A stretch of 20,654 nucleotides of DNA, from positions 1-20,654 of IMG/VR virus record IMGVR_UViG_3300032193_000336; one strand, 5' to 3'. Below the pieces are notes generated by a model. It was not told the DNA's origin. It was given only the letters and a program-made list of their open reading frames with translations, and ran no database searches. Source of the stretch: a virus. Of the stretch, positions 10,251 through 20,124 are shown one piece after another (the first letter of the stretch is position 1; every line of letters begins with the position of its first letter). The position numbers and the translations under genes are program-made.

Positions 10251-11639
10251 TTATTTAGTGCCATGGTTAGACTCTGATTCTAGGTCGCCATACGAGTCTC
10301 GCATCAATCTTAAGGTTGTCGTAAACCTTCCGTTAGTGGATGATGTACTGTCATAAGAGTGAGTAACTTCCTCAATTAGATAAACACCGCTACTCTCAGG
10401 ATCGTATGGTTCTCGATCTACTCTCTTTCCTGGGGTTTTATTGACCAGTTTAATATTAATCTTATCTCCTGCACAAATTTCTGAGTTGCCAGGGATAACA
10501 ATAGTTCCTACCTGATGTTTTAATAGTTCATATCTCATCAAAGATTGGGTTGCAAAATGTTTGTGGAAATCGCAATATTCATTTGGTTTATCTGAACCGT
10601 CTGCCTCCTCATACGATGCGATTGCTGGTTCATTATACCACGATTCATGATCTAAGAGTGTAGATACAATTCTTGTAGGATAATCTGAAACAGACTTATC
10701 GCCAAACTTAATAAGAGATGGTGTATTCTGTGATCCAAGGTGCTTCATATCTTTGTAAGCATCCTCGACACTATAATGATACTCACTGTATTGACCAGTA
10801 GAGTGATTAAAGAATACAATGAGACTAGAATACTTACCTTTTCTCATTGCTGACATGACATCAACTTCAGCATTAAAAATTGCTTGAGAGATGGTCATTC
10901 TGTCGTCAGCACCATCACCCTGGTTTGCTGGTTTTTCGATGTATGGTCCCCATGTCTCATCTCTATCAATCATAGTATCAACAGAGAAGAAATTATATCC
11001 CCTCTTTGTCTCCCAGAATAAGAATCCTGCAGTTCCACCAATCTTTTCTTTTTCAGTCTTTGCTTGTTTGCCTTTACCAGATCCTGGTGTTTTTGTGCCA
11101 TTACTAGGAACAGACTTCACTGCAATAGAAGAGATAATATCAAAAGGTCTCCTATTTGTGGGTAGCATCTTGATAGCAAACTCAGGAGACTCAGAGAAGA
11201 ATTCTTTTTCTGAATTCAAGTTCTCTTTTAAGATTTTCCCAACAATAGAGTCTGGTTTCCCTTCTAATCTATTGATCAATCTAACACACTCGTTATTGAG
11301 TGCCTCTACAGATATCAGACCTAGTGTGTATGACTGTACTTGGTTTTTAGCATATCTATTTCCAACCTTCCATACTTGGAACACATACTCTTCTTCGTCT
11401 TCTCTAGAACTTGTCTGACAAACGATCTTAACAGTTTCTCCACCCTGAACAGGGAGATCTGCTAACAATCCAGCACTATCAACAACTGTTAATGTAGCAG
11501 CACGGAATGGACTAGTGATACTCTCAACATAGTTGAATGTACCAACCATCTGTCTGATCTCATATCCCTCAGTCTCACCAAGTTTTGCAATAACAACACT
11601 CTTGAGATGAAAGTCTGTTATGTTCTGAAATTGATCCAT
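10251..11639 (-). CDS. 27: Baseplate hub subunit gp27-like
   Basis: A 462-residue protein. The N-terminus (FHLKSVVIAKLGETEGYEIRQM...), two tail-tube-like beta domains with alternating strands (ATLTVVDSAG, ETVKIVCQT, EYVFQVWKVG) and the late PGNSEICAGDKINIKL segment fit the T4 gp27 / phage hub family, whose trimer links the tube to the gp5 spike. T4 gp27 is 391 residues, so this one is longer, with an inserted Lys/Gly-rich loop near residues 183-200. The start ATG overlaps the tape-measure stop as TAATG. The order tape measure, gp27, gp5 is consistent with hub assembly. Assignment rests on family features and position; sequence identity to T4 would be low. Confidence 0.75.
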   Translation of the reverse strand: MDQFQNITDFHLKSVVIAKLGETEGYEIRQMVGTFNYVESITSPFRAATLTVVDSAGLLADLPVQGGETVKIVCQTSSREDEEEYVFQVWKVGNRYAKNQVQSYTLGLISVEALNNECVRLINRLEGKPDSIVGKILKENLNSEKEFFSESPEFAIKMLPTNRRPFDIISSIAVKSVPSNGTKTPGSGKGKQAKTEKEKIGGTAGFLFWETKRGYNFFSVDTMIDRDETWGPYIEKPANQGDGADDRMTISQAIFNAEVDVMSAMRKGKYSSLIVFFNHSTGQYSEYHYSVEDAYKDMKHLGSQNTPSLIKFGDKSVSDYPTRIVSTLLDHESWYNEPAIASYEEADGSDKPNEYCDFHKHFATQSLMRYELLKHQVGTIVIPGNSEICAGDKINIKLVNKTPGKRVDREPYDPESSGVYLIEEVTHSYDSTSSTNGRFTTTLRLMRDSYGDLESESNHGTK

Positions 11640-14425
11640 TATGCTAGTGCTCTAATTTTTAACTCTTGGAACACTTCAGTTCCAGTTGCTGACATGCCAG
11701 GAGCAGCAGATACACCGTTTGGATTTACCTGTTGCTGACCACTACCATTGCCTCCTGTATAGTAATTATTAATGACAGTAGGCGATGCAGAAGTAGAAGC
11801 AGATGCTACCTGCGCTGATGTCGCCATGAGAGGTGTTCCAGTATTTGGATTGGATGATTGCATATTGTTATACCAATTCATATCCTCTGCCGATGGAGTT
11901 AGACCAGTGGATTTTTTCTGTCTCTGGAGAGCTTCCTGATATGCTTTTTTGATTGCATCAGCACTCTTACCACCCTGACCATAATAACTAGTGCCATATC
12001 CATACCTAACATCTCCCATTAAGTTAGGGAAAGATGCAAACTCAGGTGCTAACATATCAATCACACTATCACTCATACCCTCTTGTGCTAGTTTTTCAGG
12101 AGTAACACCTCTAAATCTAGCAATTCTGCCTAGCATGATCTGGTCCTGCAATTCTGGAGTGAACATCGCATTTGGATCGATGTTTTGCTTTTGCATTTCT
12201 TCTTTTAGCATATAACTCATCATCTGATATCTACCAGTAGCATCAGAATTGTGTTCATCTTGTGCATATACTTGCTGACCATTATACATGCCTGTTCTTT
12301 GCATCTCTAAAACTTGTGCAAGAGTCATTTTTCCTTGCTCAAGTGCAGGAATTACCTTACCACCATAAAGAGTTCCATAACTCTTGTTAGTTCCTTCAGC
12401 AAATGAAATTGCATCCAACATAGCACGCTGTTCTCTTGATCCACCAACAGCTTGTCCTGATTTATTTGGACCTAACAAAGGTGTTGTTGGCAATGGTGGT
12501 AATGGTGGCGGAGCAGATGGTGAAGTATCGCCACCAGTAATACTATTAATAATTCCTTTTACTGGTCTTGCAAAAAGTTCAAAGACTTTCATGTACTCTT
12601 GTTCTTTGGCAAATAAACGGAATCCTTCTGCCTGAATCTCAGCAACTTCTTTCTTTCTTCTCTTTTGAGCATCAACAAATGCATCACCAAACATCGCAAA
12701 TGTCTTTCTACCTTTAGCACCCTCTAGTGGGAAAACACCCTCAGCACCTGCTTCACCCATAAGTGCATTGGTGGGTTCTGTAATGATACCACCCTTCGCA
12801 AATGGGGTCATGCCCAAATCTCTTGCTAATAGGAAACCATCAATACCCAAACTAGCACCAGCACCAACACCAGTAGCACCCATGACACCAGAAGCAATTT
12901 CAAGACCAGCACCTAAGTAGTCTCCTTCTAATGCACGCTGAACACCAAAAACAATACCAGCAAGACCAGCAATGACTGGAATTTTCTTCAATACAGACTT
13001 ACCAAGTGCTTTTGCCCCTGGTTTTGCTAGTCCAGCAGCAACTTTTGCTGCACCAGTGCCTTTTTTAGCACCCGCTTTAACAAGTTGATTAGCAGCATCA
13101 GAACCAAATTGATCAGCAACAATTCTTACTGCTTCTTTCTTAGGAACACCTTCATCTACAAGTCTAGCTAAGATTTTCGATGGAGCTGCTTTACTAGCTT
13201 GTCTGACACCACCTTCAATGAAGAATTCTCCTACATCTGCAGCAGCTTTTGTAGCAACCTTAGATCGTGCTCCTTTTGCTGCCATCTCCCCTGCTGTTGC
13301 TGCAGCTGCAAGAGACTTAGCAGATGTTTTTGCAACAACTTTACCACCTCCAAGTGCTGTTTTTACAATAGGAGCAGATTTTGCAGTTCCAAATAATAGT
13401 TTAGATGCATTTTCTGCTACTTTGGGCATCATTTTTGCTGCACTCACTGCAGCAAGGCGATTCTTAGAACCCACCGTGGCTAACTTAAGAGCTCCAAAAC
13501 GAGCACCTTTAGCAATTGCCTGAGCTCCTGCCTTAGATGGACTTAGACCTCTTCTTACTAAGGTTTTGAAGAAGTCGCCCATATCTTTGCGACTACCCCC
13601 TCCAGAACCAGTGCCACTACCAGGAGAAAGTCTCTTAAATTTTGATGGTGATAAGAAGTCAGAGAAGTCTCCACCTTGTTCTAATCGCCTTTCTTCTGCC
13701 CTAGCACGTTCTCTACTTGTTCGTCGATCTGCACGAGCTTCTTGCTCGTTATGCATACTGACTTGTTTTGATGTCTGGTCTTTAGTTAATGCAGACAGAC
13801 CAACAATTGCTTCTGTATTTCTATTAACAGCAGCGACAATATCAGCACCACTATCTGGTGTGATGGGAGGTGCTCCTTCTCCAGTTGGAGCAACACCCTT
13901 TGCACGAAGACTTGCTCTGTAGTCTCTTACAATTAATTTTTGTTCTTCTGCGGACTTACCACTTGCACGCAGTTTTTCAATATTAAGTTCTCCACTCTTA
14001 CTGAAGAAACGACTATCTTTTAGTCCTCCAGTAGATGTAATACCTGGCGTAGTGCTAGCACTAGCACCACCAGGAAGTCTTTTTGGACCACCAGGAGTTG
14101 CAACTTTTGCTCCTGTTTTTAAATCAACGTTTATAGGGTTTTTTTCAATGCTCCCACTGCTACCCTGCAGCATTTTAGGTGCTTTTCTACCTGGGAGAAA
14201 ACCACCACCAATAGCAGTATTTTCACCAATACCAAATCTACCAGCAACCTCTGTACCACCTCTACCAGATCTATAGGTAGTATCTCTAGATTTTGCAGTA
14301 TTGAGTCGAATACCCTTAAGATGATCAGCAATTTTCTCTAATTGCTTCCCAATCTTTCTTTCAAGATATCCTATAATAGGACTTTCGCCCGTTACTGGTG
14401 TTGGTGTGAGAAAACCGTGTGCCAT
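11639..14425 (-). CDS. 29: Tape measure protein (gp29-like) with muramidase domain
   Basis: A 928-residue protein. Residues about 1-60 are a helical N-terminus; 190-530 are Ala/Lys-rich helices with a hydrophobic segment near 480-540 (IPVIAGLAGIVFG...). Then FAKGGIITEPTNALMGEAGAE (about 542-562) carries the GGI-x(4)-T-x-ALVGE-x-G-x-E motif typical of phage tape measures. After a Pro-rich linker, residues about 660-822 form a lysozyme-like domain with ISFAEGTN (E near 677, candidate catalytic acid) and ATGRYQMM near 731, as in muramidases that cut peptidoglycan. The tail is Ser/Asn/Gly-rich. The length would allow about 90-140 nm of helix depending on how much is extended. Its ATG overlaps the upstream chaperone stop as TAATG. 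T4 gp29 lacks the lysozyme. Confidence 0.75.
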   Translation of the reverse strand: MAHGFLTPTPVTGESPIIGYLERKIGKQLEKIADHLKGIRLNTAKSRDTTYRSGRGGTEVAGRFGIGENTAIGGGFLPGRKAPKMLQGSSGSIEKNPINVDLKTGAKVATPGGPKRLPGGASASTTPGITSTGGLKDSRFFSKSGELNIEKLRASGKSAEEQKLIVRDYRASLRAKGVAPTGEGAPPITPDSGADIVAAVNRNTEAIVGLSALTKDQTSKQVSMHNEQEARADRRTSRERARAEERRLEQGGDFSDFLSPSKFKRLSPGSGTGSGGGSRKDMGDFFKTLVRRGLSPSKAGAQAIAKGARFGALKLATVGSKNRLAAVSAAKMMPKVAENASKLLFGTAKSAPIVKTALGGGKVVAKTSAKSLAAAATAGEMAAKGARSKVATKAAADVGEFFIEGGVRQASKAAPSKILARLVDEGVPKKEAVRIVADQFGSDAANQLVKAGAKKGTGAAKVAAGLAKPGAKALGKSVLKKIPVIAGLAGIVFGVQRALEGDYLGAGLEIASGVMGATGVGAGASLGIDGFLLARDLGMTPFAKGGIITEPTNALMGEAGAEGVFPLEGAKGRKTFAMFGDAFVDAQKRRKKEVAEIQAEGFRLFAKEQEYMKVFELFARPVKGIINSITGGDTSPSAPPPLPPLPTTPLLGPNKSGQAVGGSREQRAMLDAISFAEGTNKSYGTLYGGKVIPALEQGKMTLAQVLEMQRTGMYNGQQVYAQDEHNSDATGRYQMMSYMLKEEMQKQNIDPNAMFTPELQDQIMLGRIARFRGVTPEKLAQEGMSDSVIDMLAPEFASFPNLMGDVRYGYGTSYYGQGGKSADAIKKAYQEALQRQKKSTGLTPSAEDMNWYNNMQSSNPNTGTPLMATSAQVASASTSASPTVINNYYTGGNGSGQQQVNPNGVSAAPGMSATGTEVFQELKIRALA

Positions 14426-14595
14426 TACTGCCTTGCTGCTTTTTCTTGTTCTTGCTTGACTTGTTCTAGGTATTGCATGAGGAGACTAGTATAAACCTGT
14501 CTCTCCCAAGGCATCATATTTTCAATTTCACTCAAACTATATTTATGGTGCTGCATCAAGGCGAAGTTAGTCTTAAAATACCCTTCCATGGACAT
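14425..14595 (-). CDS. Small tail-assembly-chaperone-like ORF, probably read as a -1 frameshift extension of gp26
   Basis: A 56-residue frame (MSMEGYFKTNFALMQHHKYS..., then LSEIENMMPWERQVYTSLL and a Glu/Gln/Lys helix). It ends in TAA overlapping the tape-measure ATG. It is helical and acidic, with no signal peptide. The frame is open upstream to the gp26 slippery site, so a -1 shift joins gp26 residues 1-236 to RIALFH and then this ORF, for about 298 residues in total. Its two candidate ATGs lie in the loop and 3' arm of a stem-loop, and there is no good ribosome site, so independent initiation looks weak. Position between a small tail gene and the tape measure, with a frameshift, is that of the G/GT chaperones. 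T4 places gene 51 here, but size differs. Confidence 0.75.
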   Translation of the reverse strand: MSMEGYFKTNFALMQHHKYSLSEIENMMPWERQVYTSLLMQYLEQVKQEQEKAARQ

Positions 14596-14619
14596 ATGGA
14601 AGAGTGCTATCCGAAAAAA
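14580..14619 (-). promoter_or_regulatory. -1 programmed ribosomal frameshift signal in gp26
   Basis: On the minus strand the in-frame heptamer T_TTT_TTC (14619-14613, codons AAT-TTT-TTC of gp26) fits the X_XXY_YYZ slippery rule. After a 7-base spacer (GGATAGC, containing the gp26 TAG), ACTCTTCCAT (14605-14596) pairs with ATGGAAGGGT (14589-14580) as a 10-bp stem with one U-G pair and a 6-base loop. A -1 slip re-reads TTT-TTT and enters the downstream ORF with no stop until 14425. Confidence 0.82.
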
Positions 14620-15320
14620 TTCGCTAACCCCTGAATAATCATTGAATTTTCAACACCAGTATTTGGATTCTTGATCTTAATCTCATGTCTCAAGACTGGT
14701 GCAGTTTCAAAGAATTTTTCAACACTTTCAAATTGCTTATTAGTCAGTCCTTCGACAAATTGAACAAATTCCTTCTTTGAAGTCGTAGAACTGTCATATA
14801 CATCTTCTGCGTCAAAAATTTGATCAATGCATTTTGCGATAATAGCAATAATGTCATCACCAGTGCTATTTTTGCCAGCAATAGAGACTTTGACGAATTC
14901 ATCAAATGAGGGATATTTCATAATTACGCCCAACGTGTCAGATAGCATAATTTTGTTAGAATGCCCTTCTGGTTTAAAAACCTCAATATCCGTCAAATTC
15001 AAATTATACTTAACTTGCGTTTCGCCGTCATCTTCACATGTTAGCATCATTTCCACAACTTCGCCAACTGACACAGCACGAATTTGTAGGAAAATATATT
15101 CTAAGTCAAAAATCGCCAAATCTTCGAGTTTTACTCTAGACTGGATGCAATTTTTTAACAAAGTTCTTACTGCATCTTCAATCTGCTTATCATCTCCAGA
15201 TTCAAGTGCAAGCAAAAGAACTTTTTCTTCTTTTACAACAAATGGGCGATATTTGATTTTTTTGCCATTAGAAGGGATTTCCAACTCATAGGTTGGAAGA
15301 GCAACTTGTGGTAATGCCAT
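14607..15320 (-). CDS. 26: gp26-like baseplate/tail protein, probable tail assembly chaperone (short form)
   Basis: A 237-residue protein (MALPQVALPTYELEIPSNGK...) of the T4 gp26 baseplate family (Pfam T4_baseplate type), seen in KIKYRPFVVKEEKVLLLALES (22-42), the acidic Cys-containing VEMMLTCEDDGE near 85-96 and FVEGLTNKQFE near 188-198. T4 gp26 is 208 residues. Classically called a hub subunit, its N-terminal layout and its place just before the tape measure also fit a tail-assembly chaperone. Its last codons contain a -1 frameshift signal that would produce a longer fusion. A GCTAAATA box lies 25 bases upstream of the ATG; no clear ribosome site is present. Confidence 0.82.
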   Translation of the reverse strand: MALPQVALPTYELEIPSNGKKIKYRPFVVKEEKVLLLALESGDDKQIEDAVRTLLKNCIQSRVKLEDLAIFDLEYIFLQIRAVSVGEVVEMMLTCEDDGETQVKYNLNLTDIEVFKPEGHSNKIMLSDTLGVIMKYPSFDEFVKVSIAGKNSTGDDIIAIIAKCIDQIFDAEDVYDSSTTSKKEFVQFVEGLTNKQFESVEKFFETAPVLRHEIKIKNPNTGVENSMIIQGLANFFG

Positions 15321-15421: not shown

Positions 15422-16138
15422 CTACGCTAGGTTTCTATTCGCTAGGTTTAGATCTTGCTGACCAGTAAATCTTTGTGCTGCACTCAGTAGTTCGCCCTTA
15501 TTCATCCACAAATTACTATCAGTGATATCATTCTGAACTGTGTAGTGCTTAGTGTAGGAGAACTGTGCTGTTACCTGTGTCAGCTGACTTGATCCAAACT
15601 GCAGAGGTATAGCATCAATAGCATATGGATATGCTTCCTCTAAAACGTAAGTAATAGGAGATCTTTCAATAGGACTGTTGCCACCCAGGTCTGTCTTTGA
15701 GATTAAGATTGTACTAGAATAGTTGTCCTTAAATTGCAATCGAATATTTCTATTCCTAGTTCTTTGAGTAAAATTACCTTGAATATAGCGAAGGTCTTCT
15801 GAGTTTAGTTGTTCTCCACCTTCACCAAAAATAAAATCATTCCAGTTTTGTAAGAACTTAAGTGCTGACATGTTAGCATCACACATGAATCCAAGTTGGA
15901 TCTCTGTGAAGACTCTTGTGTGTGCATAGTTTGTCTGCCCACTACCAACATAGAGTCCATTCTGATTGCCTTGGGCAGTATTAGTGTTAGGAAGTTGTGC
16001 TTCGCTACAGAACATTTCAAAGTAATCTTCTTCAGCTGGTAGTCCTACAGGAGGTCTGAGAAACTTCACCACGAAGTTATTACTGAACGACATTCCGCCG
16101 TTCGCTGCCATTGTTGTTAATAGGCGATCTATAGACAC
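15422..16138 (-). CDS. 54: Tail-tube-like baseplate protein, candidate gp54 (tail tube initiator)
   Basis: A 238-residue protein with a tail-tube outline: SFSNNFVVKFLRPP (strand and loop), EMFCSEAQLPNTN (the segment common to gp19-type tube proteins), RVFTEIQLGFMCDANMSALKFLQNWNDFIFG (strand, then the helix and W-N-x-x-IFG typical of gp19-like tubes) and repeated antiparallel strands to the end. The main tube protein gp19 in T4-like phages is normally beside the sheath gene, so a second tube-like protein inside the hub block is best read as the tube initiator gp54. The GTG at 16138 is taken as start because a CATAAATA box lies 27 bases upstream; an ATG at 16111 (MAANGG) is an alternative. It diverges from gp4. 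Confidence 0.65.
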   Translation of the reverse strand: MSIDRLLTTMAANGGMSFSNNFVVKFLRPPVGLPAEEDYFEMFCSEAQLPNTNTAQGNQNGLYVGSGQTNYAHTRVFTEIQLGFMCDANMSALKFLQNWNDFIFGEGGEQLNSEDLRYIQGNFTQRTRNRNIRLQFKDNYSSTILISKTDLGGNSPIERSPITYVLEEAYPYAIDAIPLQFGSSQLTQVTAQFSYTKHYTVQNDITDSNLWMNKGELLSAAQRFTGQQDLNLANRNLA

Positions 16139-19112: not shown

Positions 19113-19151
19113 AAAATTTGCGGAAAAAATTTTTCCAGTTTTATGGAATTC
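19113..19151. repeat. Intergenic palindromic repeat, copy B (probable bidirectional terminator)
   Basis: A 39-base element in the gap between convergent gp53 and pstS, about 30/39 identical to copy A (15369-15407). Centre GGAAAAAATTTTTCC (19122-19136) is a perfect palindrome. Compared with copy A the third base from each end has changed together (G-C to A-T), keeping the pairing. A short hairpin GTTGA/TCAAC (about 19095-19110) precedes it. Position suggests termination for both strands. Confidence 0.6.
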
Positions 19152-20124
19152 ACTTTAGCGTTTCGACAGCAGCAAGTGATTTTTGACGCAGTGATTCAGG
19201 GAGAGGAACATAACCCAGTGCGTCTGCCTTCTGCTGTTGAGTAGGCGTCAGCATGTAGCGGAGCATGTCCTTGACACTCTCGTTCTTCTCATACTCAGGG
19301 TACGCAAGGATCCAGGTGAGAGAAACGATTGGGTATGCATTAGCACCAGCAGGGTTAGCGTCAGCACCACGCAGTTGATCGTCAAGGACAATCTCACCAA
19401 GACCAGCGGAAGCAGTCTCAGCAGATGCCTTCACGAAGTTGCCTGCTTTGTTCTGAATGGCAACCTGTTGGAGACCACCACGAACATAACCATAATTTAC
19501 ATAACCAATAGAACCTGGGAGGTTAGTGATAGCAGCAGCAACACCAGAGTTGCCTTTGCCACCAATACCAACAGGCCACTTTACAGATTTACCAGTGCCA
19601 ACCTTCGCCTTCCACTCAGGAGAGAATGCAGACAGTGAGTTGGTGAATCCTTTGGTAGTACCAGAACCATCAGAACGCCAGACAGTTTTGATATTACTAT
19701 CAGCACATCCAAAGTGAGACCAGTTGGTGATCTTGCCGAGGAATACATCAGCAAGTTCAGTCTGTGTCATCTTAACTTCACAACCAGGGTTGTTGTAAGT
19801 AGGGACGATCGCACCGCCCGTCATAGGGACATGAACCATCCCTTCAGCAGGTTGTTTTTCATCAGATACAGCACCATCAGAGGCACCGAAATCAACAGTC
19901 TTTGCTTTGAACTGACGGACACCAGCACCACTACCAACTGCTTGATAGTTTACTTGGTTGCCAGTGTCATCAGACAGAGACTTAAGGACACTGTTGTAGT
20001 ACATGGCAGGGAATGTAGCACCCGCACCATTCAATTTGTATGGTTTGTTTGCTTGCTCAGTGGAACCACATGCTACCACCAGGGGTGCTGCCACTACGGC
20101 AGCAGCGATTGCTTTGAGTTTCAT
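19150..20124 (-). CDS. pstS: Phosphate-binding protein PstS
   Basis: A 324-residue periplasmic binding protein of the PstS family, which delivers phosphate to the PstABC transporter. A lipoprotein signal is present: basic-hydrophobic MKLKAIAAAVV, then lipobox VVAC with C19. Family motifs are GAGATFPAMYY near 34-44, SGAGVRQF near 65-72, VDFGASDG near 77-84 and WRSDGSGTTKGFT near 149-161, the phosphate-contact loops. Full length for the family (E. coli 346). Cyanophage pstS is a known host-derived gene expressed under phosphate stress. It follows the beta-barrel gene by 11 bases with GAGGTAAAGGATA before the ATG, so both share the Pho-box promoter upstream. No pst permease genes are nearby, so it would work with the host transporter. 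Confidence 0.95.
   Translation of the reverse strand: MKLKAIAAAVVAAPLVVACGSTEQANKPYKLNGAGATFPAMYYNSVLKSLSDDTGNQVNYQAVGSGAGVRQFKAKTVDFGASDGAVSDEKQPAEGMVHVPMTGGAIVPTYNNPGCEVKMTQTELADVFLGKITNWSHFGCADSNIKTVWRSDGSGTTKGFTNSLSAFSPEWKAKVGTGKSVKWPVGIGGKGNSGVAAAITNLPGSIGYVNYGYVRGGLQQVAIQNKAGNFVKASAETASAGLGEIVLDDQLRGADANPAGANAYPIVSLTWILAYPEYEKNESVKDMLRYMLTPTQQQKADALGYVPLPESLRQKSLAAVETLK

Follow-up and report, generated by a model that had tools for sequence, protein, structure and literature searches.

The window analysed here is the whole 20.7-kb stretch of a virus record and carries the tail genes of a T4-like cyanophage on the minus strand. The gene for the tail tube protein (15422..16138, minus strand; Pfam PF23849, E 4.4e-84; phrog_45, tail tube) lies upstream of gp26 (14607..15320, minus strand). 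The 237-aa product of gp26 is a member of the T4_baseplate family PF12322 (E 9.8e-73; 244.9 bits against a curated Pfam cut-off of 24.5) and matches phrog_150 (E 1.4e-79). A small ORF in the -1 frame relative to gp26 (14425..14613, minus strand) opens with CGG ATA GCA, closes at TAATG, and matches phrog_634 (E 3.2e-24) and the C-terminus of phrog_150. The label of phrog_634 is baseplate hub assembly catalyst (gp51), and this extension of gp26 is annotated as gp51 in relatives. It is followed by a long ORF of 928 aa (11639..14425, minus strand), a putative tape measure protein by its position, its length, and a match to phrog_10093 (tail length tape measure, E 3.8e-8), with endolysin/peptidase phrogs matching more strongly. 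The gene order of tail tube, gp26, extension, and tape measure puts gp26 and its extension in the position of the G/GT gene pair between the tail tube and tape measure genes.

The 3' end of gp26 reads GGG TTA GCG AAT TTT TTC GGA TAG, with a slippery heptamer, T_TTT_TTC (TTTTTTC, 14613..14619, minus strand), framed as AA T_TTT_TTC GGA TAG. The initial annotation had gp26 terminating in this heptamer; the heptamer is indeed in frame at 14619-14613, but a sense codon, GGA, intervenes before the stop. No other in-frame T_TTT_TTC occurs among the 6,327 codons of the main ORFs in the window. The 7-nt spacer that follows (GGATAGC, 14606..14612, minus strand) was read directly and includes the zero-frame stop TAG (14609-14607). 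It leads to a hairpin (14580..14605, minus strand) with a 10-bp stem, ACTCTTCCAT/ATGGAAGGGT (14605-14596/14589-14580), and the 6-nt loop ATGTCC, with a folding energy of -12.8 kcal/mol and a z score of -3.9 computed against dinucleotide shuffles. Direct reading and folding thus confirmed the spacer and the stem-loop at 14605-14580 as first described, and the small ORF's own ATGs were found where they had been placed, in the loop (14595) and in the 3' arm (14589). The -1 frame is open as far as TAATG, an overlap shared with the tape-measure ATG at 14425, again as first described. The reading frames predict products of 237 aa in the zero frame and 298 aa when fused via the -1 frame, in agreement with the proposed forms of 237 and approximately 298 residues. 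Absent from the initial annotation was a Shine-Dalgarno (SD)-like element, CAGGGG (14628..14633, minus strand), 8 nt upstream of the heptamer; this site, TCAGGGGT, has a predicted anti-SD duplex energy of -6.0 kcal/mol.

We compared 265 homologous loci, comprising the window, loci from IMG/VR scans with three cyanophage queries and with Aeromonas and Stenotrophomonas phage queries, and named phages. The initial annotation had proposed conservation of the heptamer and of the stem in relatives as checks. An in-frame heptamer was kept in 261 of the 265 loci, including those of Kyanoviridae, Straboviridae (AS-zj and VH7D), and Stenotrophomonas phages, and in 259 of these 261 the heptamer is separated from the stop by exactly one sense codon. 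Nearly all relatives have an open -1 frame extension, of near-constant length. Immediately before the heptamer, 24 loci have a stop in the -1 frame, which restricts entry into that frame to the heptamer or a point beyond it. The 240 distinct genes that bear the heptamer, counted without the four exceptions described below and without correction for relatedness, all use the exact T_TTT_TTC spelling, compared to 30.5 expected from their own codon usage. Judged against codon usage, the spelling is therefore not due to chance. Other Phe-Phe sites within gp26 are spelled T_TTT_TTC in 3 of 242 cases.

Four loci depart from this pattern. L094 (Rhizobium phage) and L096 (Vibrio phage) are distant relatives that lack the heptamer and have TAATG overlaps instead. 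In L265 (IME-SM1) the slippery run is short by one T. This is probably a sequencing error that mis-annotates gp26, since the near-identical sisters L095 and L264 keep six T and the missing T shifts reading away from both frames. In L235 (1201-2091), gp26 and the extension form a single 297-aa frame in which TTTTTTC has become TTTTT. A second gp26 copy was sought in this record, a 236-kb contig, and was not found; the single-frame fusion could be real or an assembly error. Separately, in Aeromonas phage AS-zj (L097:3205-5235) about 2 kb after gp26 is without an annotated gene and holds an unannotated -1 frame extension.

A scan of 90 loci with 34-nt windows and mononucleotide shuffles gave a folding z score that peaked at about -3.7 at +4 to +6 nt past the heptamer, compared to about -0.2 in the rest of the gene. 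For a fixed stem, the share of paired cells in the window clade was 0.893 in register and did not exceed 0.63 at slid positions; in the P-SSM2 clade the corresponding values were 0.926 and at most 0.405. In the broad set, the observed stem pairing was reached by 0 of 500 shuffles, and pair 13:27 occurs as T-A (50), G-C (16), and A-T (13), which, as a pattern of paired substitutions, is truly compensatory. Variation in the window clade consists mainly of one-sided G-U changes, not of double changes. In S-PM2 this place is occupied by another, longer stem, and the hairpin is weak or absent despite the heptamer in AS-zj, the Stenotrophomonas phages, and some P-SSM4/Syn33-like loci. The position and register of the stem are kept in most close relatives. 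A search of Rfam found no family covering the frameshift signal.

The SD-like element lies 8 to 10 nt upstream of the heptamer across the family. Anti-SD pairing peaks sharply in 8-nt windows starting 12 to 18 nt before the heptamer, with a best family-wide mean of -6.8 kcal/mol compared to -0.8 kcal/mol gene-wide. Pairing below -5 kcal/mol was found in 74% of loci versus 46% after synonymous shuffling, and where the site encodes Glu, GAG is used in 125 of 139 cases, compared to 26% elsewhere. Part of the SD-like signal is accounted for by the conserved Glu/Gln-Gly-Leu residues, with codon choice adding to it because synonymous shuffling lowers the signal and GAG is in excess. The element is unevenly distributed, with pairing below -5 kcal/mol in 24% of the window clade versus 97 to 100% of the P-SSM2 and broad sets. 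Together with the spelling of the heptamer and the register of the stem, these patterns indicate that the signal is under selection.

The signal is similar to that of Escherichia coli dnaX, in which an upstream SD, a slippery heptamer, and a downstream hairpin are likewise combined, and the spacing between the SD and the heptamer in dnaX resembles that of the cyanophage element. As in dnaX-type signals, the hairpin starts within 5 to 9 nt downstream of the heptamer. The window also has the SD-like element expected about 10 nt upstream, although much of its clade has only a weak one. The two systems differ in the heptamer (A_AAA_AAG in dnaX and T_TTT_TTC here) and in the outcome, as frameshifting gives the shorter product in dnaX and the longer one in the cyanophages. 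In dnaX, the upstream SD stimulates frameshifting (PMC5009743), and the cyanophage element is probably a stimulator of the same kind. U_UU.U_UU.C is among the heptamers with measurable frameshifting in E. coli when stimulators are absent (PMC4066793).

The relationship of the predicted products to T4 proteins bears on their function. The profile of the fused product aligned with T4 gp51 over columns 13-281, the C part included, and with T4 gp26 over the N part only; T4 gp51 matches both phrog_150 and phrog_634, and T4 gp26 and gp51 both match PF12322. T4 thus appears to encode the short form and the long form in two separate genes, since gp51 aligns to the whole fused form and gp26 to its N part. 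T4 gp28, whose gene immediately precedes that of the T4 tape measure, was considered as the C part and rejected, as it gave no profile match. An AlphaFold model of the short form (pLDDT 84.5) matched the HK97 tail assembly chaperone (TAC) 2OB9 (HK97 gp13) weakly (probability 0.87, E 0.81) and 3FGX weakly (probability 0.57), and these were the only credible solved-fold matches. The gp26 profile gave no match when searched by sequence against solved structures, and the weak TAC matches come from the fold search only. 3FGX has been grouped with tail assembly chaperones (PMC9603447).

Annotations and older T4 genetics place gp26 in the hub (review PMC3004832), and a genuine frameshift might accordingly serve a structural baseplate hub part instead of a chaperone. 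However, that review also names T4 gp26 and gp51 as chaperones of hub assembly, the position of gp26 between the tail tube and tape measure genes is that of a chaperone gene pair, the model of gp26 has its weak fold match in the HK97 TAC, and a TAC identification in T4-like phages has been published, as cited in PMC10885494 and PMC12846349. We consider a structural hub role very improbable. The chaperone identity suggested in the initial annotation is instead favored by the gene order, the homology to T4 gp51 and gp26, and the weak HK97 fold match.

We therefore put at roughly 90% the probability that gp26 is a tail assembly chaperone with a -1 frameshifted long form, produced through the heptamer, the hairpin, and the SD-like element. 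Both the occurrence and the efficiency of frameshifting, like the chaperone function, are what we infer from sequence. Most ribosomes would stop at the TAG at 14609-14607 and release the 237-residue short form (TAC-N). A fraction would slip back one base as the two Phe-tRNAs re-pair on T_TTT_TTC, aided by the hairpin 7 nt downstream and probably also by the SD-like sequence 8 to 10 nt upstream, and would then continue in the -1 frame, yielding a long form of 298 residues (TAC-NC). Lambda gpG/gpGT suggest, by analogy, that the N part would serve to coat the tape measure protein and the C part to recruit subunits of the tail tube.

Most database annotations, including those of S-PM2, P-SSM2, Syn1, and others, treat the small ORF as separate, and it could be a gene of its own (gp51), with translation starting at its ATG or resuming by reinitiation past the stop of gp26. 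An ATG lies 2 nt past the gp26 stop in 144 of 261 loci and within the first 18 codons of the -1 frame in about two thirds of the distinct junctions, and the TAATG overlaps of the distant L094 and L096 occur without a heptamer. However, the start codon is not conserved among relatives: 39 of 209 distinct junctions lack an ATG, GTG, or TTG among the first 18 codons of the -1 frame from the heptamer onward, and most of the window's clade has NTLEG where the window has MSMEG (ATG). The motif FFR(I/V)xxxH is conserved even where no start codon precedes it. An SD-like motif before the first ATG was found in 3 of 201 cases, below the 11% expected at random, and in the P-SSM2-like clade about 25 nt separate the end of the upstream SD-like element from the ATG, a distance too great for normal initiation. 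A stable hairpin encloses the ATGs of the small ORF in the window and P-SSM2 clades, and a separate start leaves the invariant heptamer unexplained. The small ORF therefore has neither a start codon nor a ribosome site conserved among relatives, so that this check, like those of the heptamer and the stem, favored the proposed frameshift, and we judge a separate gene to be very improbable, with coupled initiation a possible side route at loci where an ATG is near the stop.

RNA polymerase slippage on the T6 run would give the same protein as ribosomal frameshifting at this homopolymer, but the runs on which bacterial slippage has been described comprise 9 A or T (PMC5009743). Here, an invariant C follows a run of 6 T, the frame is defined, and the spacing of the hairpin and the SD-like element is that of a ribosomal signal. 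Slippage is an extremely improbable source of the long form. The window also contains four phage tRNA genes (1645-2775), for Asn-GTT, Ala-TGC, Thr-TGT, and Leu-TAA. Since a Phe tRNA is absent among these four, an effect on ribosomal slippage at the tRNA level is unsupported.

The predicted arrangement is similar to that of lambda, where a short chaperone and a -1 frameshifted long one, gpG and gpGT, are also encoded between the tail tube and tape measure genes. The TAC-N of the window phage is longer than its lambda counterpart, and the lambda heptamer, GGGAAAG, differs from T_TTT_TTC. Frameshifting is reportedly conserved in several T4-like groups, with T4 itself using genes 26 and 51, according to the 2022 study by Vladimirov and colleagues. 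A 2016 review described lambda-type G-GT frameshifting as widespread in long-tailed phages "except T4" (PMC5009743). T4-like chaperone genes were subsequently identified by Vladimirov, Gautam, and Davidson (2022, Virology 566:9-15), a study that PRFect (PMC10885494) cites for T4-like phages in which a short gene is accompanied by a separate gene for the long fusion and that a 2025 paper (PMC12846349) cites for polyT -1 frameshift signals in T4-like TAC-N genes. As represented in these two papers, the chaperones of that study belong to the same gene family as gp26 and likewise have polyT -1 signals in TAC-N. The core idea of a frameshifted chaperone in T4-like phages is thus, going by these citations, already published.

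The three-part signal, with its hairpin and SD anatomy, and the fusion in L235 may be unreported. We suggest, tentatively and at somewhat less than even odds, that the chaperone frameshift of the T4 superfamily has a previously undescribed dnaX-like signal (SD-like element, T_TTT_TTC, and hairpin) conserved across marine cyanophages and that at least one lineage, that of L235, has hard-wired the fusion as a single frame with no second copy detected. A frameshifted chaperone would correct the annotation in hundreds of cyanophage genomes, where gp26 and "gp51" would be one gene with two chaperone products in place of a baseplate hub subunit and a separate catalyst. It would also link marine T4-like phages to the lambda tail assembly rule and offer a compact natural signal for studies of frameshifting in cyanobacteria.

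Elsewhere in the window, a gene at 19150-20124 encodes a periplasmic phosphate-binding-like protein (PF12849), and two paralogous genes for cyanophage outer-membrane-protein-like beta-barrels (PF24653; 5531-5908 and 20136-20495) flank the tail region.
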